From: an uncultured Eggerthellaceae bacterium
GTDB lineage: Bacteria > Actinomycetota > Coriobacteriia > Coriobacteriales > Eggerthellaceae
DNA: 56,500 nucleotides
Direction of reading: 5' to 3'
NCBI GenBank assembly: GCA_949840905.1
Contig: CATKXW010000014.1
Coordinates: forward strand, 1-56,500
A program made the position numbers and the translations under genes. Below the pieces are notes generated by a model that saw nothing but the letters and a program-made list of their open reading frames with translations, was not told the DNA's origin and did no database searches. Numbering within the stretch: the stretch's first letter is position 1; each line of letters begins with the position of its first letter. Of the stretch, positions 1 through 56,500 are shown piece by piece.

Positions 1-2072
1 AACGTCTTCCACACGCGCCAGTAGCTTGGATCGCTCGGGTCCTTGGAGGTGTCGGGCACCATGAACTGCATGTAGGCAGCCCCTGTGGCGGAGTCGGTCA
101 GGGTGCGCCTCGCAGAAGCGCTGTTGGCGGCGAACCAATTCTGGAGGTTCGCCGAAGGACCAGTGCAGTACGTGGCTATGACATCGCGCTCTGCCGGCAG
201 CCCAAGGAACTCAGGGGAGTTCGCACCCACAGCCGCGCTCGGGAAATCGAATCCTGCGGGCAGGATGCGCAGAGCGGATAGGTCGTAGAACATGTGGCTG
301 ACGTTCGTCGCGGATGCGGGGATGGGACTGATGGATGCGGGAAGAGAGGTCAGCGCCCAGCAACGCTCGAAAGCCGAGGCGAGCGACACCCCGCCCGGCA
401 GCGCGAAACCTTCCGGCAGCGACTCGAGCTTCACGCATCCTTCGAAGACGCTCTCGCAATCGGCACCTGCGACGCCCGACCCATCAGCCCCGGCGAGCGT
501 GAAGCCGTTGGGAAGCGAGGTCAGGTTCACGCAGGATTCGAACATGCCGGAAGCGTTCTTCACGGATGCAGGAAGCACGAAGCTCTCAGGAACGGACGTT
601 ATAGCGGAGCTTCTGAGCAGATGCCGCACATCGGTGCAACCATCGGGGATGAAGGCGGCCGAGAGGTCGGTGAGCTGGGTCATCGAACAGAACCAATACG
701 CCATCGAATCGGTTCTGACCGTATCTTCCATCGCGACGGCGGTCACGAGATTCCTCACGCCATACCAGGGAACATGGGCCTCATCAGCATAGGCACCCGA
801 GATGATGCTGCCCTCTTTGCAGCGGATGTGAAGGGTCGATCCCACCAGTTCCCAGCGAGCGGAGGCTTCGTCTCCATCCAGCGTCGGGAGGTCACCGGAG
901 AAGGCGATGGTGGAACCACCCGTCAAAGGCATGACCGACGAGAGGATAACGGGGGTCTGGTCGGAGGATGCCGCAGCAGGCTCGCTCTCGCGCACAGCCG
1001 CCACATTATCGTCGACTTGTTCGGAATAGCGAGCCGAGAAGAGCGCGAACAGAGCTCTCAAGGGTGCAGCAGAGGCCTCGTCGGGCGCAAGCTCAGTATC
1101 CTCGGTGACCCCGTTCTCACCAGCAACGGCCTCATCGAGGCCACTCCAATCAACAGACGAGCTCAGAGGAGCATCGATGGCCCGGGTCATCTCGGCATCT
1201 TCCACGACGACCGCGATGGGCTCGTCCTGGGCATTTCGTATCTCAGCATCCCTAGAGAAAAGAAAGGCTGCACCGTCCGCATCGACGGAGAGCGAATCCA
1301 CTGAGGAGCAATGCGAGAGAACCCCAGGATCCACTTCCGCGCCGGAAGCGATACGGACGGTGCCCGTTCTGCCCTCGGGAATGAGCAGAAGGCTGAATGG
1401 ATCGGCCCCATAGAGGCAGCCGTCAAAAGAGGAGTAGATATCGCTCTCAGGCGATACGAAGACCGCTTCGATCTTCTCGGCTCCGAACAACGCTTCGGGG
1501 TCGATCGTATCCACATGAGAGGAAAAGGCAACAAGACGCGCCTTGACGCCCGAAAGCGCACCTGCGGCGATCGAGGTCACAGGGTAGACGGCACCCTCGC
1601 GCTCAAGAGCGCTCGGCACAAGAAGGAAGCCTTCCTCGGTCAGCTCAGCGTTAGCGGCGTTCAGAAGGGAGAATGCTCCCGCATCCTCATCGAAGCCGTA
1701 AACGCAGCCATCCGCCACGAAGGTGGTGCGAAGGGTAGGAACAGCCTCTTCTTCCTTTCCCACCAACTCCATAGTAGCCGTTGCGATAGTGGTCACCGAG
1801 AAGTTCGCCAGGGCATCAGCAGGAAGAATATAGGTGCGGTTTTTGGCGAGCACGCTCGTCAAAGGAGCGGTCGCTTCAGATCCGCCTTCGGCAGGAGGGT
1901 TCGCTTCGCCCCCAAGGCCACCTTCCGTCGCATCCGACGCGACAAAGCTCGCTCCTTCCCCTTCATCGGCGAAGGCGAAGGCGGAGCTAGGCAGTACAAG
2001 AGCGCAGGCGATCAGCAAAAAGGCCAGCAACAACAAAGGCGTGCGCATGCGCGCAGCAACAGATGACCGCAT
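1..2072 (-). CDS. Secreted surface protein A, 3' end outside window
   Basis: The reading frame is open from an ATG at 2072 to the left edge (690 codons), so the C-terminus is not seen. The start follows a strong AGGAG site and gives a signal peptide: basic N-terminus, hydrophobic core and a cleavage-like SSAFAFA. Residues about 70-290 form a domain shared with the proteins starting at 30686 and 54509 (short marks GCVYGF, SIAAGALSG, LLIPEGR, GAEVDP). The stretch from about residue 440 carries three to four leucine-rich-type units of the form MF-x-x-C-x-x-L-x-SLP-x-x-F, like BspA/DUF285 surface proteins. Extracellular adhesin-like function is inferred; no enzyme motif is visible. Expression is probably controlled by the structured leader upstream. 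Confidence 0.85.
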   Translation of the reverse strand, partial: MRSSVAARMRTPLLLLAFLLIACALVLPSSAFAFADEGEGASFVASDATEGGLGGEANPPAEGGSEATAPLTSVLAKNRTYILPADALANFSVTTIATATMELVGKEEEAVPTLRTTFVADGCVYGFDEDAGAFSLLNAANAELTEEGFLLVPSALEREGAVYPVTSIAAGALSGVKARLVAFSSHVDTIDPEALFGAEKIEAVFVSPESDIYSSFDGCLYGADPFSLLLIPEGRTGTVRIASGAEVDPGVLSHCSSVDSLSVDADGAAFLFSRDAEIRNAQDEPIAVVVEDAEMTRAIDAPLSSSVDWSGLDEAVAGENGVTEDTELAPDEASAAPLRALFALFSARYSEQVDDNVAAVRESEPAAASSDQTPVILSSVMPLTGGSTIAFSGDLPTLDGDEASARWELVGSTLHIRCKEGSIISGAYADEAHVPWYGVRNLVTAVAMEDTVRTDSMAYWFCSMTQLTDLSAAFIPDGCTDVRHLLRSSAITSVPESFVLPASVKNASGMFESCVNLTSLPNGFTLAGADGSGVAGADCESVFEGCVKLESLPEGFALPGGVSLASAFERCWALTSLPASISPIPASATNVSHMFYDLSALRILPAGFDFPSAAVGANSPEFLGLPAERDVIATYCTGPSANLQNWFAANSASARRTLTDSATGAAYMQFMVPDTSKDPSDPSYWRVWKT

Positions 2073-2340
2073 AGCGATCAGCTCCTTCCGGTGTGTGTTC
2101 TCGTCACACCATGGAGGAAGCCCTGCTATCTATTCACGATCGTTTCCCGACGACTTGCGTGAGGAGGGCATCCACCACAGTCGCCAAACTGGGAGATCAC
2201 ATAGATTCGATATACCGCGAACCAGATATCTCGAAAGGCAGATGCCCTCTTCATCTCTGGTTTACGGCATTACGAAGCAGATTCGACCGCGCATATTCGA
2301 TTCTATGCAAACCTCTTTACAAGAGATTTCCCAATTTGGC
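2073..2340 (-). promoter_or_regulatory. Structured 5' leader RNA, copy A (candidate riboswitch-like element)
   Basis: This is the untranslated leader of surface gene A. Read on the minus strand it contains helix a (2340-2329 with 2194-2183, 12 pairs including one G-U), helix c (2262-2256 with 2226-2220, 7 pairs), an invariant loop GAGGGCATCTGCCTTTC whose GAGGGCATC (2249-2241) is complementary to GATGCCCTC at 2172-2164, and a terminal hairpin 2121-2081 that pairs the Shine-Dalgarno sequence. Helices a and c change sequence in copies B and C but stay paired. The loop-to-downstream pairing crosses helix a, which makes a pseudoknot. The ligand or signal is unknown and I cannot match it to a named riboswitch family. 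Confidence 0.75.
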
Positions 2341-2347
2341 TGACTGG

Positions 2348-2376
2348 AATATAGCAGACGCCCGACCAGCCTTCAA
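2348..2376 (-). promoter_or_regulatory. Promoter of surface gene A
   Basis: On the minus strand a -35 box TTGAAG (2376-2371) and a -10 box TATATT (2353-2348) are separated by 17 bp. The same hexamers and spacing occur at 30992-30964 and 54195-54223. The predicted start falls about at 2341, directly before GCCAAA, the 5' strand of leader helix a. From 2377 to 2627 I see no gene. Confidence 0.7.
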
Positions 2377-5890: not shown

Positions 5891-5966
5891 GGTCGGGTAG
5901 CTCAGTTGGTAGAGCAGCGGACTGAAAATCCGCGTGCCGAGGGTTCAAGTCCCCCTCCGACCACCA
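5891..5966 (+). tRNA. tRNA-Phe (GAA)
   Basis: The 76-nt sequence folds as a cloverleaf. The 7-bp acceptor stem (GGTCGGG with TCCGACC) has one G-U pair. The anticodon stem GCGGA/TCCGC holds the loop CTGAAAA with anticodon GAA. The T loop is TTCAAGT and CCA is encoded. One A-C mismatch lies in the T stem. It has its own promoter and a strong terminator. Confidence 0.95.
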
Positions 5967-21740: not shown

Positions 21741-24700
21741 CTAGAAGCAGAAGAAGTAGCTGGCGGACTCATAGCCCCAACCGCCTCCTCCTCCGAGGAA
21801 AGGATCCCCATCAGGCCCGACAGTCAGATATCGTTCAGTTGTGCCCGGGGATAGAGACCTGAGAAGCCAGCTGTCCTTATCGTTCGTTCTCCACTCGAGT
21901 CTAACGAGAGCGTCATTGGCAGACATCTGATTGAGTTTTCCAAGGTGTGCGTAGAACTCATATTGAAAACCTTCATTTTTAAGATATGAACCGTGCGAGT
22001 TCATCCAAGATCCGACAACCTCAATGTAGCTAGGAAGGAATACGGTGTCGGTCGATACCCTTAAAGCTCCCGTGGCATCATCGGTTGTTGTGAAGTATTT
22101 CTTTAGCACCGGCCGAGCATGCTGTTTTATTACAGAAGGTATATACCCCCATTTGTCTCCTGAGTTCAATTCGGTTCTCATCTTGGAAGATCCCCAATTG
22201 GGGCTTTCAGCGATGTCGACCCCGGTTAAAATGTAGGCGGATCTAACGGTTTCAAACGTCAGGCCTGCTTTCGTAACTTGAGTTGATTGACCGAACTTGT
22301 TATTAGCTTGATATCCCGAAGCCAAATCATCGTGACGTAACCCAGCAATTCGTATGAACATGTATCCGGGAAAGTATCCGCCACTGGTATCCCACCCTTT
22401 AGAGAAGCCATAAACGCTCGAGCTCTTAGATAAGTAGGGATCATCCATGGCATTCATAAAGTTTCGATAAACCGGATAATAGTCAGACGAAACCCCATTC
22501 ACAGCAATATCGTTCGCTGCTGTCTTGATATTCGAAATAGTATAGAAACCCACCGCACCGTTAGAGCTATCACCGTTATAGATATAGAAGTCCCCAGCAG
22601 CACTCTCTGTAGAAGCGGAGGGTTTTATGATCCAATCCCAATGAGCATAGAGCGTCACACCGCTCGTTGTGTCCTTGTTCCAGTTACGGGCGCTCGCAAG
22701 AGCTGCGGTGTAATACTGGGTGCCACCGGTGGCTGCATCATAATAGCCCAGGAAGGTACACCCTGTTTTGGTAGGCTTGGTAGAGCCGATCGAAGGCATG
22801 GCACTTCCATAGGTAGCCTTCTTACCGGTGGGCATGGTGCCAGAGCCTCCGTTGGCGTTGAAGGTGAGGGCGCTCGTCTTGGGAGTCCATTTGGCATAGA
22901 GGGTAACGACATTCTTATCTATCGCCGTGAAGTTGTTCACGCGCTGGCCGTCGGAATACACGGTTCCGGTACCAGCCGAATTCGCTGTCCAGCCCGCGAA
23001 GGTATAGCCTGTGCGGACGAATCCATTAGAGGTAAGGTTCTTCGCTACAGCGTAGGTCATAGCCATAGACGCAGTGGATCCGGAAGTAGCACCATTTCCG
23101 TTAAAGGCAATGGTATAGGTATGGGGTTTCCAGCCGCCATAGAGCGTTGCGTCGCTTGCTTTGTTCCAAGTGCGCGCCGAAGCACCCGCCGCAGTATAGT
23201 ACTGGGTCGCCTTGGTATAATCACCGCCATCGTACCAACCCATGAAATCGAAACCAGCACGTACGGGAGCAGTGGTGGTGATGGGCGGCATAACGGCTCC
23301 GTAAGTGGCGGTCACATTGGCGGTCTGGCCGCCCGTTATCGTATCCGATCCAGTACCTCGCACGAAGCTCACCGTATACTTATTGGCCGTCCAATGAGCC
23401 CAATAGGTGGTATCGGTAGAGGGAAGCGGAGTATCGGCCGTTACCTGCGTATGGTCTTTGGCAAACCAACCGGCGAACGTGTAGCCTGTCGCCTCAGGAT
23501 CAGCAGACGGCATGGGCAGCTTGGCGCTCTCCGAATACACAGCAGAGGTGCTCGGGATATCTGGGCCTCCACCGCCATTCCTGTCCCACGTGATGGTGAT
23601 AGTGTTGCCCGTCCATTTCGCGTAAAGAATAGCATCGCTCGGCTTATCCCAGAACGTGGTCGCAGCACCGCTTCCGTCGTAATAGCACGTTCCTGCGCCG
23701 TTCGGTTCAGCATAATATCCCCCGAAGCTATAGCCAGGACGAGCAGGCAGCGTGATAGAAGGAAGCGCCGCATGATATGTCACGGATGCTTCCGCCGTGC
23801 CGCCCGTACCGCCTTGGCCATCGAATGTCACCGCATAGGTATTGGCCTGCCACCGCGCGTGAAGATACCCATAGCTGGCCTTATCCCATACATGAGCTGA
23901 ACTGCCATCGGCATTCAGATAGAGCGTGCCACTGTCAGGAGCAGAAGTGTCATAGAAGCCCACAAGGGTGTAGCCCGCGCGAACGGGCGCCATGTAATCC
24001 GCCGGGGCAGGCAATGGCTGCCCATAGGTCGCCTTGATGGAGCTGATGGTGCCTTCGCCCTGATTCGCACTGATGAACACATCGTAGACGTTGGCGGTGA
24101 ACTGCGCATAGAGCGTGGCGGCATTCCCTTCCTTGTCCCAGGCGCTCTTTTGGGGAGCAAGGCTCTCATCGTAATAGCATATCCCACCTGTCGCAGCGTC
24201 GTAGAAGCCCACAAAGCTATGCCCTGTCTTCGTAGGTACGCCCGATACAGCAGGAAGCTCGTCCTTATAGAGAGCGCTCGCCGTACCAGGGCCGCCAACG
24301 CCTCCGTTAGTGGCGACATCGAACGTGATAGTGCAGGGGTTCGGGGCCCAAGTCCAATGAGCATAGAACGTCGTGGAATCGGCCGAGAGGATGGTGGCTG
24401 GGCTCACCTTGGCACCCCCAGATGCCTCGGTATACCAACCGTCGAAGCGGAAATGAACGAGGCTCGGCTCAGGCAACGCATCTCCGTATTTGACCATCAG
24501 ACGCTGTCCGCGTTCCATGGCGATGGTGCCAGGTACGTTCTGTACGGCATGCTCGGCATCGGATGGCGTATTAGCAGCCCATGTCACCAATACCGGCTCG
24601 CCCTTCCAGCGAGCGTAGTAGGTAGTGGAGGCGGTGGGCGCAGATGGTGCGGGCGCTACATCCACGCGAGTACCCCCTACCTGTGCCGTCCACCAACCGG

Positions 24701-27700
24701 CGAACTCATAGCCCGCCCGCGTAGGGTTCTTGCTCGGCAACGACAGCGTGCCGCCGGCGATAGAGCTCTTCACCTCGAAGCGGTTACCGGCTGCGAAAGC
24801 GCCGAGCGTCGCATCGAAGGTGTTGACCACCTCGGTGTTGCCGCCACTATCAGGAGGCGTAGAGGTATACACCGCCCGAAGCGTACCATCCTTGAGCGTC
24901 ACCGAAGGTGCCGTGACGCCGGTAGCGAGGTTGGTGCCCTTTACTACGAAAGAGAACGAGGTTCCTGTTCTAAGCTCATCCCAGCCGATGAAAGAGCCGG
25001 TGGAGGCCACCTGGAAGCCCAATAGATACTTGCCATCGCCTTCAAAGCGCTTCGCAACGCTCGCTAGATCATTGCCCCCAGAAGGCTCATAGGAATCCAC
25101 TACTACGACCACATCATCGTCGGCTTTCGGTGCTTCTGCGTCACTCGCCCACATGAGCGCGCCAAGATAAGTGCCATCCAGTAATGACTCGCTCGTTCCC
25201 TTATGGTTCACCGCCGTTGAGAAAATGGTGCTGTTGCCCGTATCAGGGGTCACGACGATAGAAGGCCCTTGACCGGGCTTCGGGTCATCGGGATCGATCC
25301 CTGGGAAGGGATCGGTGCCCGGCTCGCCCGGAATGCCACCGGTGGACTCATCTATCCAGCGTGCATAGAGCGTAGCGTCTCCGGCTTTGTCGTAGATGCC
25401 CACCCCAGCACCAGAAGCACTGTAATAGAGCTTTCCGCCCGTAGCGTCTTTAGTGTCGAAATAGCCGATGAATCGATGATCCGCACGGGCAGGCATGGCC
25501 ACCCCCGAGGGCAGCGGCGAGTCGAACACGGCGTTGACGCTCTCGGTGCCCCCTGCACCGCCATTCGCATCGAATGTGATGGTGTAGGTGCGTGCATGCC
25601 AATGAGCATGATAGGTGGCATTGGCCGAAGGGGTCTCGTTCGGAGCCCCGATGCCTCCTATCGCCTGCGTGAACCAACCCTCGAACACATAGCCTGCGCG
25701 GACAGGATCGGTGGGTTTGGATAAGGTCTCACCCACCTTCGAGAACACCGTCTTATAGCGAGCTCCATCAAATGATCCCTCCCCGGCATCGTAGGTGATA
25801 GCGATGGAGCTACCAGCTATCGGCCCATCAGGACCCGGATCCGGATCGATGGGTGAATCTGCATAAACAGCCCGCAGGGAACCCTGTTTGAGGCCAACGG
25901 ACGGAGCTGCTGCGGAAGAGGACAGGTCGCTCCCCATCAGCAAGAGCTTGAATGCAGCCCCTGACGCCAGATCGCCCTTGGATACGAACGATCCCGTTGA
26001 GACCACTTCGAAACCGAGCAGATACCTGCCCTCCCCTTCGAATGCGGAAAGGGCACCTTGGAGCGGAGCGACGGTGGACGGCACGTAAGAGTCCACGCGC
26101 ACCACTACACGCTCAGAGTCGGCGGCCACACTGCCCACCCCTTCCCAAATGACCGAGCCATGATAGGTGCCATCAAGGAGGGTGCGCGATGTGTTCTTAT
26201 GGTCAAGAGCTTCGGCACGAATGGTGCTTCCAGATTGAGGCGTCGGCTCGATGGTGGGTCCCGCCACAGGAGCTGGTGGGAAGAGCTCTTCGCCCTCGCC
26301 GGCGGAGCCTGTGGAGCCATCTATCCATCGAGCATAGAGCGTCGCCCCTTCCGCTTTGTCCCAAACGCGGGCAGAAGAGCCAGAAGCGGTGTAATAGAGC
26401 TTGCCACCAGCCGCGGCGGAAACATCGAAGAAGCCTGCGAACACATAGCCCTCGCGACTCGGCATGCCCACCGAAATGGAAGGCATCGCGACACCATACT
26501 GCACATCTACCGTGACCGGATAGCCTGCGATCCCCTCAACATTGGCATCGAGGGTCACCTTGAAGGCAGCACCCTTCCAGTGTGCGTAGTAGGTGGTGGC
26601 CTTGTTAGGAACGAGCGTGGCTCCGTCCACCTTGATACCACCATCGGGCGCTGTCCACCAACCGTCGAAATCGAAGCCCGAACGGATCGGCTCTTCTTCC
26701 GGCACGTTCAGTCTCTCGCCCACTACCGAAGACACCATGATGGATGCAGCGCCATTCCCGAAGGTACCCCCGGCACCGTCGAAGGAATTGGTGACGCCGG
26801 AACCTTCCTCAAGTTCGTCATTCGGATCAGAAGGATCGACCGGCCGGACAGGGGCATCGCCGTAGACAGCCACAAGCGCGCCATCGCGAAGCGAAAGGCT
26901 CGGCAGTCCCGAGGTGGCAGCAAGGTCGGATCCTTTGACCTTCAGCAAGAAGGTCCCGCTGCTCAGCTCTTCCCACGAGATGAAGCTACCGCAAGAAGGA
27001 ACAGTGAAGCCGAGCAGGTGCTTACCGGTGTTGGAGGCGAAGCGATCCTTCACCTCAGCCAGAGCATTACCAGCATCCGGCTCGTAAACGGAGAGCGTCA
27101 CCACCACCATGTCCGACGCGGCCGGGGTCTCTCCTATGCTATTCCACATGAGCGAACCCCGATAGGCACCCGACAAGAGGGTTTTGGCAACGCCGGCCTC
27201 ATCGCTCGCCTTCGCAAAGATGTTCGATCCCGCATCGGGGATCACGATGATCGACGGCTTCTCGCCGGGCTTCGGGTAGTCGCCCGGGAACGGGTCGGTG
27301 GGATCGGTGCCGCCGGGACTCACCGGGACGGGCGGGTCAGTAGGAGCCGTGCCGCCTGTGGAGCCATTGATCCAGCGCGCGTAGAGCGTGCCTGTGCCGG
27401 CCTTGTCCCAAGCGCGCACCGAGGTACCGGCGGCTGTATAGTACATGGTGCCCTCCTGGCCAGCCGCTGTATCGAAGAAGCCGACGAGCTCATAGCCTTC
27501 GCGCACGGGGAGCTTGGCTAGCGTAGGTAGCGGATCGCCCTGCTTCACCTGCACCTCAGTAGTGCCAGCTACAGCGTCATTGGCGTTCTTATCGATAGCG
27601 ACCGCGTAATCAACGCCGGTCCAATGGGCGTAGAAGGTGGTCGGCTCGGAAACCACCGAGTCAGCGGTCACTTTCGTACCACCAGAGGCGGCGGTGTAGT

Positions 27701-30686
27701 ACCCATCGAACACATAGCCATCGCGCACCGGATCGCTCGCAGGCAGTCGCACGGGGACGGAGGTGGAAAGGGTCACCTTCGTGGTCTCAAAAGCATCGGT
27801 CCCATCATTCGTCGACCAAGTGAGATCCGCATCCCAAAACGCATGGTAGGTGGTATCCACGACAGGCAGGCGCGTCGCCGTGGTCACCTTCTCGCCAGAT
27901 GCCGTGCCGTCTTCCGCCTTGGCATACCAACCGTTCCATACGAAGCCCGCACCTCTATCCATGGCATCATATGCCCCACCTGAAGGGTAACCGACGTTGA
28001 TAGTGTCCTCATCGGTGTAAGTGTAGGTAGCCGAAGGGGGATCGGCCACGTTCCAACCGCCCGTGTCCCACGATACCGTGACCTCGTCTCCGATCCAGTG
28101 GGCATACAGCGTCATCGCGGCCAGCGTAGGAGGCACATCCTCTATCTTGACGCCGCCCACAGCCGCCGTATACCAACCATCGAACGTGAAGCCAGGGCGC
28201 ACTGCTTCGGGCAGCGATCCCATGAACTGGCCGAGCACGATGTTCTTGGTGATACGGTCCTCCCCTTCCACCTTCGCGTTCAAGCCATTAGCGACGAAAG
28301 TGACCGGAACGCTCGCCTCAGAGGCGCTCCAATGAGCATAGAAGACGATCGGCTCGTCCACATCATCCACGATCACCTGCGAGAAATCGTTTACCTGGGT
28401 GCCCGCGATAGGATCGGTGAACCATTCGTTGGAGGTGACATAACGACCATCGGAGCGGAACATGGCAGTGGGAACGAAACCTTCACCAAGCACGTCTGCC
28501 ACGCTCTGGCCATATTCCACGCTCTTCACGAGCTGCTTTTTGGAAGCATCGCCATCGAAGAAGCCGCCGTTACCGTCGAAGACCACCGTGCCGGATTCCG
28601 TATGCCAACCCGCATACAACACCGTCGCCGTCGTTTTATCCCAGTCCCTTACGGCTGCCCCATCAGCATCGAAGTACTGGATGGCTCCTTCTTGGGTGTA
28701 TAGCGGCTTGTCGAAGAAGCCCATGAAAGTATGCCCGTAATATTCAGGGGTCTTGAAGGGGCTGCCATCAGGCATAACGAGCGCATTCGGACGCTCACCA
28801 TAGGTGGCCTGCATCGGGTCGAGATAGTAATCGCTCGTCCCATCGTCGTTCACGTCGAACAGTATGGTGGAGCGCACCGCTTCCTCAGGAGCATCGGTAG
28901 CCTCGAACACAGTGATGAGCGAGGTATTGGAGACCACGTCGGTCTTCTCGACGGTCGCCTCGTTCATGCGCACTGTGTATTGGAATGATCTTTCGGTGGG
29001 TGTCGCCACCGAGCCTTTGGCCAACGCGATGAAGCCTATGTCTTCCGCTTGGGTGGTAGTGGCCCCTGGAGCGACCGATCCTGCGCAGTTCGGATCATCT
29101 GCCAGAGAGATGGAGAAGCGCAACGACGAAAGGTTGCCGAACATGTCAGCAAGGTCAGCGGTAGACCCCTGCAAGCTAGTGGTATCCCAAGTGAGAGAAG
29201 TGGCCTTCACATCCCAGGGCGACATGTTCTTGATAGTGGCCGTGGTAGAAGAAGGAACATCGATGGAAGGTTCGCTTCCCACTGCCACGGACACGCTCGT
29301 CGGAACGTCCACCGATATGGTGGGAGCCCAGCCGGCATAAAGGATCAGGCCATCGGTGCCAAGATCATATTCGGTGGTGCAGCCGTCTTGGGTGAAGTCA
29401 GGATTGTAGTAGCGGTTGGCCTTGGTGTAGTCGCTGCCATCGTAGAAGCCCATGAACGCATATTTGTCCCGCACGGGAATCTTAGCAGCGATATGCTGAT
29501 CGGAAAGAGAGGGCATCGACCCCTCGGAAGTGGTCCACACAGAATCTGGAATATGGCCCCCCACGCCGCCGTTGGCATCGAAGGTGACCATGTAGCTCGG
29601 TCGAGCGGTCATGAAACTGGAGACTTCCTCAACGTTCGAAGAAGAGCCCTCTTCTTCGAGAGAAGTTCCCGCCTCTTCCATTCCCTCGATGGGCTCGCCG
29701 GCGGGTGCGGAAGGCGATGTGGTCGAGTCGGCATCGCCTTCCAAGCGATCGTCGCCGTCCGCAGGTTCACTACCTGCAAAGGCCTCGTCAGTATCGGAAG
29801 GGAGGGTGATGGGCGCGAAAGCATCGTCATCGAAGTGGATGGCATCGGGGTCGAAAGACAAGGACTCATCTTCTATGGGAGAGCCCGCCACCCCTTCATA
29901 AGGAGCATCGTCTTTATCCTGGATATAGAGCACATCATGTCCAGAGAGAGAGGCTGCACCATCCACGCCAGCAGAGAGCGGCTCGACCGAGAGGCAATGC
30001 GAGAACTCCTCGGGATCCACTTCCGCGCCGGAAGGGACGCGGATGGTGCCCAGCCGACCCTCGGGAATGAGTCGGAGGCTAAAGGGGTCCTTCTCGTAGA
30101 GACAGCCGTCAGAGGAAAGATAGGTCTCATTGGAAGGAGCCACGTAGAACGCTTGCAGCGCATCTGCGCCTTCGAAGGCGGCCTTGTCGATAGAAGCCAC
30201 CTCAGAGGAAAGCGCGACGAGAATAGCATGGGAGCCAGAAAGAGCACCCGCAGCGATGCTCCTCACTGGATAGGAAGCGCCATCGAGCACGAGCGCTGAC
30301 GGGATGATGAGGTGGTCGTTCTCGGTCAGCTCAGCATTGGTGCCATTCACGAGCGTAGAGGATCTGGTTCCCCTGTCGATGACATAGACGCATCCACGAG
30401 CAACATAGGTGGTGCGCACGACGGAACCATCCTGGGTCTTCGCGCCACCTTTAGAGGAAGACAACGCAACGGTACCAGATGTGATCGTAGTCACCGCAGC
30501 ATCGCTCATAGCGGAAGCTGGCACCAAGACGGTGCGACTCGAAGCGAGCTCGCTCGCGAGAGGAGCTACGACAGCTTCCTTGCTCTCATCAGCGAAAGCA
30601 GATGGCACGATAAGGACGAAGGCCAGTACTAGAGCAAGCAGAGGGAGAGCGCCTCTTCGCAAGCGCGCGATAACAGATGACCGCAT
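21741..30686 (-). CDS. Giant secreted InlB-repeat surface protein B (2981 aa)
   Basis: The start at 30686 follows GGAAGGAG and begins a signal peptide ending near PSAFA; the frame continues upstream to 30839 only by chance through the leader. Residues about 50-260 are the N-terminal domain shared with surface proteins A and C, followed by an acidic linker. About twenty InlB/Listeria-Bacteroides-type repeats follow (pattern FDANGG, then GY-x-F-x-GWY, then LYA-x-W). Three copies of a 130-residue domain are interleaved. The last 290 residues form a distinct domain whose end (SWLLRSLSPG, ASYFFCF) resembles DUF6273. No LPxTG or C-terminal membrane helix is visible, so attachment is unclear. An adhesin-like role is inferred. 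Confidence 0.88.
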   Translation of the reverse strand: MRSSVIARLRRGALPLLALVLAFVLIVPSAFADESKEAVVAPLASELASSRTVLVPASAMSDAAVTTITSGTVALSSSKGGAKTQDGSVVRTTYVARGCVYVIDRGTRSSTLVNGTNAELTENDHLIIPSALVLDGASYPVRSIAAGALSGSHAILVALSSEVASIDKAAFEGADALQAFYVAPSNETYLSSDGCLYEKDPFSLRLIPEGRLGTIRVPSGAEVDPEEFSHCLSVEPLSAGVDGAASLSGHDVLYIQDKDDAPYEGVAGSPIEDESLSFDPDAIHFDDDAFAPITLPSDTDEAFAGSEPADGDDRLEGDADSTTSPSAPAGEPIEGMEEAGTSLEEEGSSSNVEEVSSFMTARPSYMVTFDANGGVGGHIPDSVWTTSEGSMPSLSDQHIAAKIPVRDKYAFMGFYDGSDYTKANRYYNPDFTQDGCTTEYDLGTDGLILYAGWAPTISVDVPTSVSVAVGSEPSIDVPSSTTATIKNMSPWDVKATSLTWDTTSLQGSTADLADMFGNLSSLRFSISLADDPNCAGSVAPGATTTQAEDIGFIALAKGSVATPTERSFQYTVRMNEATVEKTDVVSNTSLITVFEATDAPEEAVRSTILFDVNDDGTSDYYLDPMQATYGERPNALVMPDGSPFKTPEYYGHTFMGFFDKPLYTQEGAIQYFDADGAAVRDWDKTTATVLYAGWHTESGTVVFDGNGGFFDGDASKKQLVKSVEYGQSVADVLGEGFVPTAMFRSDGRYVTSNEWFTDPIAGTQVNDFSQVIVDDVDEPIVFYAHWSASEASVPVTFVANGLNAKVEGEDRITKNIVLGQFMGSLPEAVRPGFTFDGWYTAAVGGVKIEDVPPTLAAMTLYAHWIGDEVTVSWDTGGWNVADPPSATYTYTDEDTINVGYPSGGAYDAMDRGAGFVWNGWYAKAEDGTASGEKVTTATRLPVVDTTYHAFWDADLTWSTNDGTDAFETTKVTLSTSVPVRLPASDPVRDGYVFDGYYTAASGGTKVTADSVVSEPTTFYAHWTGVDYAVAIDKNANDAVAGTTEVQVKQGDPLPTLAKLPVREGYELVGFFDTAAGQEGTMYYTAAGTSVRAWDKAGTGTLYARWINGSTGGTAPTDPPVPVSPGGTDPTDPFPGDYPKPGEKPSIIVIPDAGSNIFAKASDEAGVAKTLLSGAYRGSLMWNSIGETPAASDMVVVTLSVYEPDAGNALAEVKDRFASNTGKHLLGFTVPSCGSFISWEELSSGTFLLKVKGSDLAATSGLPSLSLRDGALVAVYGDAPVRPVDPSDPNDELEEGSGVTNSFDGAGGTFGNGAASIMVSSVVGERLNVPEEEPIRSGFDFDGWWTAPDGGIKVDGATLVPNKATTYYAHWKGAAFKVTLDANVEGIAGYPVTVDVQYGVAMPSISVGMPSREGYVFAGFFDVSAAAGGKLYYTASGSSARVWDKAEGATLYARWIDGSTGSAGEGEELFPPAPVAGPTIEPTPQSGSTIRAEALDHKNTSRTLLDGTYHGSVIWEGVGSVAADSERVVVRVDSYVPSTVAPLQGALSAFEGEGRYLLGFEVVSTGSFVSKGDLASGAAFKLLLMGSDLSSSAAAPSVGLKQGSLRAVYADSPIDPDPGPDGPIAGSSIAITYDAGEGSFDGARYKTVFSKVGETLSKPTDPVRAGYVFEGWFTQAIGGIGAPNETPSANATYHAHWHARTYTITFDANGGAGGTESVNAVFDSPLPSGVAMPARADHRFIGYFDTKDATGGKLYYSASGAGVGIYDKAGDATLYARWIDESTGGIPGEPGTDPFPGIDPDDPKPGQGPSIVVTPDTGNSTIFSTAVNHKGTSESLLDGTYLGALMWASDAEAPKADDDVVVVVDSYEPSGGNDLASVAKRFEGDGKYLLGFQVASTGSFIGWDELRTGTSFSFVVKGTNLATGVTAPSVTLKDGTLRAVYTSTPPDSGGNTEVVNTFDATLGAFAAGNRFEVKSSIAGGTLSLPSKNPTRAGYEFAGWWTAQVGGTRVDVAPAPSAPTASTTYYARWKGEPVLVTWAANTPSDAEHAVQNVPGTIAMERGQRLMVKYGDALPEPSLVHFRFDGWYTEASGGAKVSPATILSADSTTFYAHWTWAPNPCTITFDVATNGGVGGPGTASALYKDELPAVSGVPTKTGHSFVGFYDAATGGICYYDESLAPQKSAWDKEGNAATLYAQFTANVYDVFISANQGEGTISSIKATYGQPLPAPADYMAPVRAGYTLVGFYDTSAPDSGTLYLNADGSSAHVWDKASYGYLHARWQANTYAVTFDGQGGTGGTAEASVTYHAALPSITLPARPGYSFGGYYAEPNGAGTCYYDGSGAATTFWDKPSDAILYAKWTGNTITITWDRNGGGGPDIPSTSAVYSESAKLPMPSADPEATGYTFAGWFAKDHTQVTADTPLPSTDTTYWAHWTANKYTVSFVRGTGSDTITGGQTANVTATYGAVMPPITTTAPVRAGFDFMGWYDGGDYTKATQYYTAAGASARTWNKASDATLYGGWKPHTYTIAFNGNGATSGSTASMAMTYAVAKNLTSNGFVRTGYTFAGWTANSAGTGTVYSDGQRVNNFTAIDKNVVTLYAKWTPKTSALTFNANGGSGTMPTGKKATYGSAMPSIGSTKPTKTGCTFLGYYDAATGGTQYYTAALASARNWNKDTTSGVTLYAHWDWIIKPSASTESAAGDFYIYNGDSSNGAVGFYTISNIKTAANDIAVNGVSSDYYPVYRNFMNAMDDPYLSKSSSVYGFSKGWDTSGGYFPGYMFIRIAGLRHDDLASGYQANNKFGQSTQVTKAGLTFETVRSAYILTGVDIAESPNWGSSKMRTELNSGDKWGYIPSVIKQHARPVLKKYFTTTDDATGALRVSTDTVFLPSYIEVVGSWMNSHGSYLKNEGFQYEFYAHLGKLNQMSANDALVRLEWRTNDKDSWLLRSLSPGTTERYLTVGPDGDPFLGGGGGWGYESASYFFCF
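24870..27360 (-). repeat. Three roughly 1-kb coding supermodules in surface protein B
   Basis: Each unit encodes two InlB-type repeats ending LYARWI-x-x-STGG and then a 130-residue domain. That domain has the marks LL-DGTY-x-G, V-x-SY-P, YLLGF, SGSF/STGSF and L-x-AVY. The domain copies lie at about 27240-26845, 26250-25860 and 25255-24870. The repeats are similar at protein level but diverged in DNA. Confidence 0.75.
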
Positions 30687-30956
30687 AGCGATCAGCTCCT
30701 TCCAGGTGTGTGTTCTCGTCACACCGTGGAGGAAGCCCCGATAAAGCTCTTCACAGTCGATTCCCGGCGAAAGTGAGGAGGGCATCCACCACAGTCGCCA
30801 AACTGTAGTCATCGCGATCGCTTCGAATATACGAGGCAAACACAGACAAGAAAGGCAGATGCCCTCTTCATTCTGTGTTCCCCTCGCTGAAACTCAACAA
30901 GTGAACGATATTCGATTTGATCGCAATCCGCCTTCACAGGAGGACTACAGTTTGGC
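30687..30956 (-). promoter_or_regulatory. Structured 5' leader RNA, copy B (candidate riboswitch-like element)
   Basis: Helix a is a perfect 12-bp pairing of GCCAAACTGTAG (30956-30945) with CTACAGTTTGGC (30808-30797). Helix c pairs AACACAG (30879-30873) with CTGTGTT (30845-30839). The invariant loop GAGGGCATC (30866-30858) is complementary to GATGCCCTC (30786-30778), which lies after helix a closes. A final hairpin 30736-30695 pairs the Shine-Dalgarno sequence. Compared with copies A and C, both helices keep pairing while bases differ. Confidence 0.78.
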
Positions 30957-30963
30957 AACGTGG

Positions 30964-30992
30964 AATATATCACGCGCCTCGAGCGACTTCAA
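30964..30992 (-). promoter_or_regulatory. Promoter of surface gene B
   Basis: TTGAAG (30992-30987) and TATATT (30969-30964) are separated by 17 bp, identical to the promoters of copies A and C. The predicted start lies just before helix a. Confidence 0.72.
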
Positions 30993-54194: not shown

Positions 54195-54223
54195 TTGAAG
54201 TCGCTTCGGGGGCATGCTATATT
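54195..54223 (+). promoter_or_regulatory. Promoter of surface gene C
   Basis: TTGAAG (54195-54200) and TATATT (54218-54223) are separated by 17 bp, as in copies A and B. Confidence 0.72.
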
Positions 54224-54229
54224 CCGGCT

Positions 54230-54508
54230 AGCCAAATCTGCACCTCTCAAAAGAGAGTTGTACACAGTTGAATATCAGTTTTCACGTAGAAGTCATTTCT
54301 CGCGTCGAATACAGAATGATGAGGGCATCTGCCTTTCATGGCTGTATTTGGCCGAGAATGTGAATTCCAGGTCTGTGTGCAACCGTGCAGGTTTGGCGAC
54401 CGTGGTGGATGCCCTCCTCACTCTCGCCGAATCGATCGTATAGCGGTTGCGAATAGGGCTTCTTCCACTGTGTGATGCAGTTGTGCGTGTTGGAAGGAGC
54501 GGATCGCT
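54230..54508 (+). promoter_or_regulatory. Structured 5' leader RNA, copy C (candidate riboswitch-like element)
   Basis: Helix a pairs GCCAAATCTGCAC (54231-54243) with GTGCAGGTTTGGC (54385-54397). Helix c pairs AATACAG (54308-54314) with CTGTATT (54342-54348). The loop GAGGGCATC (54321-54329) is complementary to GATGCCCTC (54408-54416). The final hairpin pairs GCTTCTTCCA (54458-54467) with TGGAAGGAGC (54491-54500), covering the Shine-Dalgarno sequence. The helices differ in sequence from copies A and B yet remain paired. Confidence 0.78.
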
Positions 54509-56500
54509 ATGCGAGTCCCTGTTGCCCCTCTTACCAAAAAGCTCATATCGACGTTCTTCGCGGTCACGCTGGCTTTCGGTCTTGTACCCGTTTCGGCTTT
54601 TGCTGAACCTGTACAAGATGGTGCGGCATCTGCCGAGTCTCAAGATGGAATGGACACTACCGAGCTGATCTCGAACGATACTGATGATGTTCTTGGTGAT
54701 GAAGATGAGAATGGTCCTGCTGCAGGAGATATCATCAACCAAGAGATGCCCCTCGACAATGTAGTGGCCCAAGCAGAATCCACTCGTACATTCTTCCTCG
54801 CCCAGACCTTGGAGAGCGCACGAGGCATCCCCATGGTGAGCGCGAAGCTCCCTATCGACAAGGGCGGAAGCGTCGATGGCGCTGAGCTCGAGCAAGGTGA
54901 TGAAGATGGCGCTGAAGAGGAAGGCGAGGGCTCTGACGAGCCTGACCTGGGCTCTGGCGTCTCTAGCGAATCCACCGTCGTGGGCTCTTTCACGGTCGAT
55001 GGCCTCACCTATGCGATAGAGCCTGGCGGAGAGTCCGTCGCCGTGGTAGCAGCTGACTACGGAAAGCTGCCGAGCGATCAGGCGAGCGAGAACATCCTCG
55101 CCATACCTTCTGCGGTCTCTGCTGATGGGGTCGATGGCTATAGCGTGAACCGCATCGCCGATGGGGCCTTCTCCGGTCCCACCAAGGATGCAGCAGGAGC
55201 TTCTGCGACCAGAGAAGGAACATCCGGTAGCTTCGATGAGGAAGCGACAGGCCTCGATCCGTCCGTCGAGGGAGAAGGAGCCGAAGATGCGGAAGAGCTC
55301 GAGAGCTCAGAAGGTCAAGAGAGCTTCATAGGCATCGTCGCTCTAGGCATCCCGGCTTCCGTCTCCTCCATAGAAGACGGAGCGTTCTCAGGCTCTGATA
55401 CCTTGCAATACCTCGTCGTCTCCGACGATAACCCAACATACGCAACTTATGATGGCGCTCTGTATAGCGCTGACCTTGCCACTTTGCGGCTCATTCCCGA
55501 GGGCCGAGTGGGCGCTGTCCGCATCGCTCCTAGTGCGACCGATGTCGATCCTGAGGTGTTCTCGCATTGCCCCTTGGTGGACGCCGTGGTCGCTGATGCG
55601 GACAGCGCAGCTTTCTATTCTGAGGACGGTTGCTTGTATGAGAAGAGTACGGACGAGCTTGTTTGGAAATCTTTAGCAGACGCTTCGATTGACGGATCCT
55701 TGAGTCTTAACGAAAAGTATGACGAACTGTCCTCGATCGTAGATGATTATTTCGATCGAGGGGTACGAAACGATGTTCTTTTGCAAACAAAGATGACCGA
55801 GCGTGGGGTATATGCGGTTTCATCTGGTAATTGTACCTGGGTCGCGAATGCTCCTTGTTGGTTTATCAAACGCTTTTACACGGCGGATGGAAAATTTCAA
55901 GCAGAGAGCGTGCAGCATTCGGGTCATATGATCCCTAATGTCTCATGGGCTACACGGTATGATACTTATATTAGTGCCGAAAACGGTAATCACAATTGGG
56001 ACGACATGGTGACCCAAACCCCAGCTGGTTACAGTTTCGATGGAATATTTTCTGATGCGGCTTATCGCAATCCGTATCCGAACAAATCGAAACAAACGAT
56101 CTCATCTCCGACTACTTTCTATCATAAATTCACGCCCATCACATACAACATTTCGTATTGGGACAATGGAGGTTATCTGACCGGACATCGGTTAACTTAC
56201 AATGTCGAGTCTCCTAGCTTTACATTAGCGCAGCCTGTTCGCCAAGGATATACCTTTGCTGGTTGGGAGGTGAGCGGTGCTTCGGGGGTCGGTATAGCCA
56301 ATCAAGGGCAACCCAATGCTACAGTACAGAAGGGAACCATTGGTAATCTATCCGCTTCGGCCAGATGGACCCCCAACACCTACGCCCTCTCCTTCGATCC
56401 CAACGGAGGGACAGGAGGCCAGCCCGGAAGCGTCACCGCCACATACGATGCGAACATGCCGGCCATATCGACCACGGCTCCTGTGAGGGTCGGATACACC
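54509..56500 (+). CDS. Secreted InlB-repeat surface protein C, 3' end outside window
   Basis: The frame is open from an ATG at 54509 to the right edge (664 codons). A signal peptide (basic start, hydrophobic core, PVSAFA) leads to a long acidic stretch. The N-terminal domain shared with A and B follows (SVNRIADGAFSG, LRLIPEGR, DVDPEVFSHC). After about residue 520 InlB-type repeats begin: GYTFAGWEV, then YALSFDPNGGTGG. Function is inferred as a surface adhesin-like protein. Expression is probably governed by the leader just upstream. Confidence 0.85.
   Translation, partial: MRVPVAPLTKKLISTFFAVTLAFGLVPVSAFAEPVQDGAASAESQDGMDTTELISNDTDDVLGDEDENGPAAGDIINQEMPLDNVVAQAESTRTFFLAQTLESARGIPMVSAKLPIDKGGSVDGAELEQGDEDGAEEEGEGSDEPDLGSGVSSESTVVGSFTVDGLTYAIEPGGESVAVVAADYGKLPSDQASENILAIPSAVSADGVDGYSVNRIADGAFSGPTKDAAGASATREGTSGSFDEEATGLDPSVEGEGAEDAEELESSEGQESFIGIVALGIPASVSSIEDGAFSGSDTLQYLVVSDDNPTYATYDGALYSADLATLRLIPEGRVGAVRIAPSATDVDPEVFSHCPLVDAVVADADSAAFYSEDGCLYEKSTDELVWKSLADASIDGSLSLNEKYDELSSIVDDYFDRGVRNDVLLQTKMTERGVYAVSSGNCTWVANAPCWFIKRFYTADGKFQAESVQHSGHMIPNVSWATRYDTYISAENGNHNWDDMVTQTPAGYSFDGIFSDAAYRNPYPNKSKQTISSPTTFYHKFTPITYNISYWDNGGYLTGHRLTYNVESPSFTLAQPVRQGYTFAGWEVSGASGVGIANQGQPNATVQKGTIGNLSASARWTPNTYALSFDPNGGTGGQPGSVTATYDANMPAISTTAPVRVGYT

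Follow-up and report, generated by a model that had tools for sequence, protein, structure and literature searches.

A pseudoknotted leader RNA family of the Eggerthellaceae and related bacteria, with a probable two-state translational mechanism

Leaders and genes in the window

The window, a 56,500-nucleotide stretch of a contig from an uncultured Eggerthellaceae bacterium, carries three leaders at 2340-2073 (-), 30956-30687 (-) and 54230-54508 (+), here called copies A, B and C. An earlier note, made from the letters alone, had placed leaders at these positions and had reported the blocks GAGGGCATCTGCCTTTC and TTTGGCGAC.GTGGTGGATGCCCTCCTCAC as invariant; neither block varies among the three. 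A 30-base conserved block has exactly three occurrences, where shuffles give an expectation of 0.00. The start codons, at 2072 (-), 30686 (-) and 54509 (+), lie one base beyond the leader ends given in that note, and 54195, where the region it singled out begins, is the first base of the copy C -35 hexamer. Common to all three are a promoter, the helices P1 and P3, and a 13-bp pseudoknot (PK) in which the P3 loop pairs with the strand just 3' of P1. The arms of P1 (helix a of the note) and of P3 (its helix c; AACCAGA/TCTGGTT, AACACAG/CTGTGTT and AATACAG/CTGTATT) are those quoted there, the proposed pseudoknot joins GAGGGCATCTGCC and GGTGGATGCCCTC in 13 bp with two G-U pairs, and a terminal hairpin does cover the ribosome site. 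The features are as follows.

1-2072 (-), exported protein with signal peptide MRSSVAARMRTPLL..., open at the contig end, behind copy A
2070-2376 (-), copy A, promoter to start codon: -35 2376-2371, -10 2353-2348; P1 2340-2325/2198-2183, P3 2270-2257/2225-2212, PK 2249-2237/2176-2164; P4 2188-2180/2154-2146, S2 2180-2171/2118-2109; Shine-Dalgarno (SD) 2089-2082, ATG 2072-2070
21742-30686 (-), 2981-aa exported protein with ten Flg_new (Listeria-Bacteroides) repeats, behind copy B
30684-30992 (-), copy B, promoter to start codon: -35 30992-30987, -10 30969-30964; P1 30956-30943/30810-30797, P3 30887-30874/30844-30831, PK 30866-30854/30790-30778; P4 30802-30795/30770-30763, S2 30794-30785/30733-30724; SD 30703-30696, ATG 30686-30684
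54195-54223 (+), promoter of copy C, TTGAAG-17-TATATT with extended TG
54231-54397 (+), P1 of copy C: 5' arm GCCAAATCTGCAC 54231-54243, 3' arm GTGCAGGTTTGGC 54385-54397
54304-54352 (+), P3 hairpin of copy C: arms 54304-54314 and 54342-54352, the loop holding the PK 5' strand
54321-54333 (+), PK 5' strand of copy C, GAGGGCATCTGCC, with covariation
54404-54416 (+), PK 3' strand of copy C, GGTGGATGCCCTC, with covariation
54390-54433 (+), P4 of copy C, alternative to P1: GGTTTGGCGA 54390-54399 with TCGCCGAATC 54424-54433
54400-54470 (+), S2 of copy C, alternative to PK and the SD hairpin: CCGTGGTGGA 54400-54409 with TCTTCCACTG 54461-54470
54457-54500 (+), anti-SD/SD hairpin of copy C, SD GGAAGGAG 54492-54499
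54509-56500 (+), exported surface protein with signal peptide and one Flg_new repeat, open at the contig end, behind copy C

A -10-like box stands immediately 5' of P1 in nearly all copies. Since copy C has its promoter at 54195-54223 and no terminator-like site, its RNA should begin at the foot of P1, and the start is expected about 6-8 nt 3' of the promoter. No intrinsic terminator was found in the leader within the stretch around copy C, and a transcription attenuator was rejected on that ground. An SD within a hairpin and a leader free of terminators agree with the translational control that the earlier note had suggested. Locus L162 of another genus carries a terminator-like stem ahead of the SD, so that single members may differ with regard to attenuation.

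Helices supported by covariation

The structure was parsed in 76 copies from the window's own genus (g1) and in 67 order-level loci, which represent dozens of genera. As a control, helix arms were swapped between copies, and all z values given here ignore the relatedness of the copies. For P1, complementarity with its own partner averaged 12.3 against 6.6 between copies within the genus, and 14.8 against 8.7 among the 67 order-level loci (z = 21-33). The corresponding values for P3 were 10.1 and 5.7 (z = 16-29). At order level the PK reached z = 8.6. In a sequence-only alignment (A5) 97.6% of its cells were paired and compensatory double changes occurred at 9 of 15 pairs; sliding the partner by 1-3 columns reduced pairing to 43-56%. 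The PK strands hardly vary in the sister species (G001), which leaves the swap test powerless there (z 1.1); in many copies of that genome the PK extends past the core into P3-adjacent sequence (PKext z 7.8).

Within g1 the core sequence is nearly invariant over about 76 copies while the arms vary freely, and the loop GAGGGCATCTGCC is unchanged in most copies. A GAATA motif was considered as a family-wide feature and rejected: it occurs in 30/32 and 35/42 copies in g1 and in 11/67 elsewhere, against 6.8% in shuffles, and is thus mainly a motif of one sub-form.

Two further helices, which the earlier note had missed, compete with this fold and give it the look of a switch. In P4, the P1 3' strand (...TTTGGCGAC) re-pairs downstream, with z = 3.0, 7.9 and 4.0 against swapped arms in the window's own genome (G000), G001 and the order, respectively. 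In many copies the P1 5' arm, the middle strand and the P4 3' arm change in concert. Examples are TGTTTTCGCAAAC/GTTTGCGAAAACA (L118), the 13-bp ACAGTTTGGCGAC/GTTGCCAAACTGT (L114) and CATCGAC/GTCGATG (L087); in some copies P4 is short or missing. S2 joins CTGTGGTGGA, a segment overlapping the 3' strand of PK, to TCCTCCACGG, the anti-SD strand. The C in CTGCGG stands opposite G in 9 of 9 cases and U opposite A or G (Fisher p 0.003). The S2 arms are nearly invariant within the genus, so the swap has little power there, and z was 1.4 and 1.7 in G000 and G001 and 4.8 in the order. Distant members retain S2 with other letters (ACGAAGGG/CCCTTCGT in L189, CTGTAGGATGGAT/ATCCTTCCTATAG in L194), and ACTTAGGGtGGA/TTCtCCCTAAGT is a further order-level example. 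Otherwise the anti-SD strand forms a hairpin with GGAAGGAG of about -13 to -25 kcal/mol. From these comparisons we regard P1, P3, PK and P4 as established and S2 as moderately supported. P1 plus PK excludes P4 plus S2 because strands are shared, which is the logic of a translational switch. A 5' leader whose conserved fold is backed by covariation is a trait shared with riboswitches.

Copy number, distribution and downstream genes

The earlier note had proposed a covariance-model search, and three models were run: R1 from the leader's 3' half, R2 around the pseudoknot (50 copies) and R3 from 41 order-level members. R1 found 36 copies in G000, a minimum for that genome, and 43 in G001, the sole other g1 genome examined and 85% complete. 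The three copies of the note are all real, but they undercount a genome with at least 36 and a divergent copy of the order type on contig C21 (L242 1525-1640, G000:C21:30492-30632). This last copy stands before a small non-exported protein (MATEKDYSISASAVNAVVES...) and probably represents the ancestral form, alongside which the surface set has expanded.

R2 recovered the family in 67 of 397 order genomes and 38 of 123 genera, usually with 1-5 copies each. With R3 it was recovered from 62 of 398 genomes of the class, two of which (family f13) do not belong to the order, and a sample of 296 genomes from the phylum yielded 4 carriers, each a member of the window's own family (f1). These large runs scored few candidates per genome under strict filters, so their copy numbers are lower bounds; the weakest matches of the order, class and phylum runs may be due to chance. 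The impression from R1 that the family is limited to one genus was wrong, as R2 and R3 recover it class-wide; R1 gave a nearly genus-restricted picture because it models the less conserved 3' half. In an exact-pattern scan of named genomes, matches other than those in one MAG resembled chance, many of them in GC-rich genomes. Viral, plasmid and phage collections gave no match save one IMG/VR contig with a copy associated with an EcoRI-type methylase.

Both ends of the window's contig (1 and 56500) fall inside leader-controlled surface-protein genes, and many other contigs of the genome end beside leader copies (C1:423, C7:71, C18:52, C34:325). Such a pattern would arise if the gene family had interrupted the assembly, and the true copy number is probably higher. 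Within the genus, the promoter, leader and signal-peptide start are duplicated as one conserved cassette. An artefact of recent duplication was ruled out, since the arms of different copies are wholly different and still complementary.

The earlier note described the controlled genes as surface-protein genes. This holds in the window's own genus, where the leaders stand before exported proteins with signal peptides; 18 of 39 leader-linked proteins there have BspA-type LRR_5 repeats. Two of the three window proteins contain Flg_new repeats, and the copy A protein (1-2072) has no Pfam match within the 690 aa present. The description is too narrow for other genera of the order, where the first gene codes for secreted proteins, lipoproteins, zinc-ribbon/SHOCT/TM2 membrane proteins, DUF6273 or ankyrin proteins or, at three order-level loci, an EcoRI-type adenine methylase. 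Overall, the downstream genes specify mainly secreted, lipoprotein and membrane proteins, and with functions so varied they do not single out a metabolite.

The loci with the leader 5' of the methylase gene are L147 (5347-5481, -), L153 and L162, all from different genera. In L147 a DUF262/HNH-like ORF follows the methylase, and perhaps the two constitute a restriction-modification pair under the leader switch. For some leaders at order level, no start codon within 170 nt is convincing. In a sub-group with P1 ACCACACTGCG... (L155, L159, L164, L168, L188 and L213), no convincing ORF was found within about 170 nt; here the RNA may act without a near downstream gene, or the genes may have decayed.

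Mechanism, alternatives and candidate signals

We propose, as a fairly probable reading of the comparative evidence, that the leaders form a new cis-acting 5' RNA family of two-state translational switches that answer a trans-acting signal common to all of them; this signal is most likely an ion or small molecule. Transcription would begin just 5' of P1. In the first state P1 and P3 would form and the P3 loop would fold back into the 13-bp PK with the strand after P1; the anti-SD strand CTTCCTCC would stay free to mask the SD, and translation would be off. In the second, the P1 3' strand would shift to P4 and the PK open, and the released GUGGUGGA would pair with the anti-SD strand as S2, freeing the ribosome site and turning translation on. 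We infer that cells pass from one state to the other, which of the two is on, and that the equilibrium is shifted by a ligand, namely a small molecule. In the window's genus, one switch would have been copied before some 40 exported repeat proteins, so that much of the cell surface could depend on a single signal; the family probably switches cell-surface genes on and off together. A more specific version, which we put forward tentatively, is a class-specific riboswitch for a ligand or signal sensed by no known class, with about 40 loci in one 2-Mb genome and one molecule setting the translation of the whole surface-protein repertoire.

The same RNA architecture could instead be recognised by an RNA-binding protein dedicated to it. 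Such a protein would be a global, class-specific surface-gene regulator, and on binding it would stabilise the pseudoknot and shut off translation. The nearly invariant core of the g1 copies and their freely varying arms fit one shared factor, as do many targets of one kind; the conserved core is, however, largely explained by internal pairing in PK and S2, and the PK letters vary in compensated pairs. We think such a protein unlikely. Rather less probable is a non-switching structured 5' UTR, whose fold would stabilise the mRNA or set a low translation rate, with P4 and S2 as by-products. When the two states were imposed on the 3' part with ViennaRNA, which cannot represent the PK energy, mean SD exposure was 0.19 against 0.26 in the S2 state, and 39 of 65 copies had the greater exposure with S2 imposed; the direction is right, the effect weak. 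That imposed states barely alter the predicted exposure suits a static leader, as does the copying of promoter, leader and signal peptide as one cassette in the genus. A static fold leaves unexplained, on the other hand, why P4 and S2 covary beyond the arm-swap controls, in distant genera too.

If a small RNA acting in trans paired with the PK 3' strand or the invariant loop, this would account for the constancy of GAGGGCATCTGCC in most g1 copies. A search with the 22-base PK strand, allowing up to 3 mismatches, found 30 places in the genome; all look like leaders and none like a separate small RNA, and across the order the PK letters change in compensated pairs, which makes this explanation very improbable. 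An RNA thermometer, in which heat melts the SD hairpin or the pseudoknot, is slightly less likely still: the hairpin that holds the SD is indeed stable (about -13 to -25 kcal/mol), but a 13-bp GC-rich pseudoknot, P1 and two exclusive helices exceed what a thermometer needs. Finally, at the DNA level GAGGGCATC...GATGCCCTC likewise reads as an inverted repeat, but a DNA element bound by a protein or recombinase was rejected as strongly disfavoured by the frequent, tolerated G-U pairs and by paired arms that differ between copies, and the repeat lies between promoter and gene in the transcribed orientation.

Returning to the two-state switch, we compared the family with known systems. As the earlier note had proposed, Rfam 15 was searched with the whole window at the gathering cut-off, with copy C at E<=5 and with 20 order-level loci at E<=0.5. 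The window returned a tRNA only (a tRNA-Phe (GAA) lies at 5891-5966), copy C gave no match, and the order-level loci gave tRNAs and sub-threshold chance matches outside the leaders. No leader matched an Rfam family and the helices are backed by covariation, in keeping with the note's view of an undescribed pseudoknotted leader RNA. The preQ1, SAM-II and cobalamin translational riboswitches are 5' leaders with a pseudoknotted aptamer, a strand shared by exclusive helices and an SD hairpin downstream. The new leader has the same general SD-sequestering layout; it lacks an Rfam match, and its 13-bp loop-to-downstream PK, P4/S2 pair and core sequence are not theirs.

GEMM-I/II c-di-GMP riboswitches occur in many copies per genome and control surface and adhesion genes. 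The present leader is likewise multicopy before surface genes; it differs in having no Rfam match and in a copy number that does not follow the GGDEF counts. GGDEF had no match in G001, with its 43 leader copies in an 85% complete genome, and one in G000, so that c-di-GMP is disfavoured as the ligand; a genome with 39 GGDEF matches has one leader copy. The ydaO/yuaA c-di-AMP riboswitch has an envelope-related regulon in Gram-positives. Envelope-related genes are a shared trait, but our leader is without an Rfam match and the diadenylate cyclase domain, present in controls, is missing from most genomes tested (16 of 20), the two g1 species among them. This makes c-di-AMP unlikely, and it was rejected as the ligand for most carriers.

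In order-level loci of f1, L159 and L164 among them, the PK 5' strand AAGGAGGGYATC resembles an SD sequence and its partner GATRCCYTCCTT resembles the 16S rRNA 3' tail; in families other than f1 this likeness is lost. A bolder variant of the switch is that in part of the family the SD-like P3 loop and the 16S-like strand may let the RNA sense free 30S subunits.

To our knowledge, about 40 copies in a single small genome is a number that few leader RNAs attain. A riboswitch-like leader is known as a kind, and the family itself is new; we regard it as a well-supported structured leader RNA family whose two-state translational mechanism is probable from the sequence comparisons. It resembles orphan riboswitch candidates (PMC2864571, PMC8632094, PMC11109978, PMC8040213) in being a conserved leader RNA recognised from covariation. 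A literature search found no description of it, nothing joining riboswitches and the Coriobacteriia and nothing relevant for Eggerthella lenta and riboswitches. The main texts of two genome-wide RNA discovery studies (PMC8632094, PMC11109978) contain none of six taxon names, from Eggerthella to Actinobacteria. PMC8040213 reports thousands of microbiome candidates, and an unnamed earlier listing among these is possible. With this leader, a group of bacteria for which no relevant riboswitch literature was found gains a regulatory RNA family that covariation supports and Rfam lacks. One switch appears to command a large family of exported proteins, and its signal would reveal how these bacteria remodel their surface. 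With members in dozens of genera, the structure, the alternative states and the ligand are directly testable.

In many g1 copies the start codon lies inside a small hairpin directly after the SD (GATCGC-TAT-GCGGTC or GGTCGC-CAT-GCGAGCC; in the window at 2060-2090, 30674-30704 and 54490-54520), which suggests that the first codons (MRSS/MRAP) may be kept for RNA reasons.
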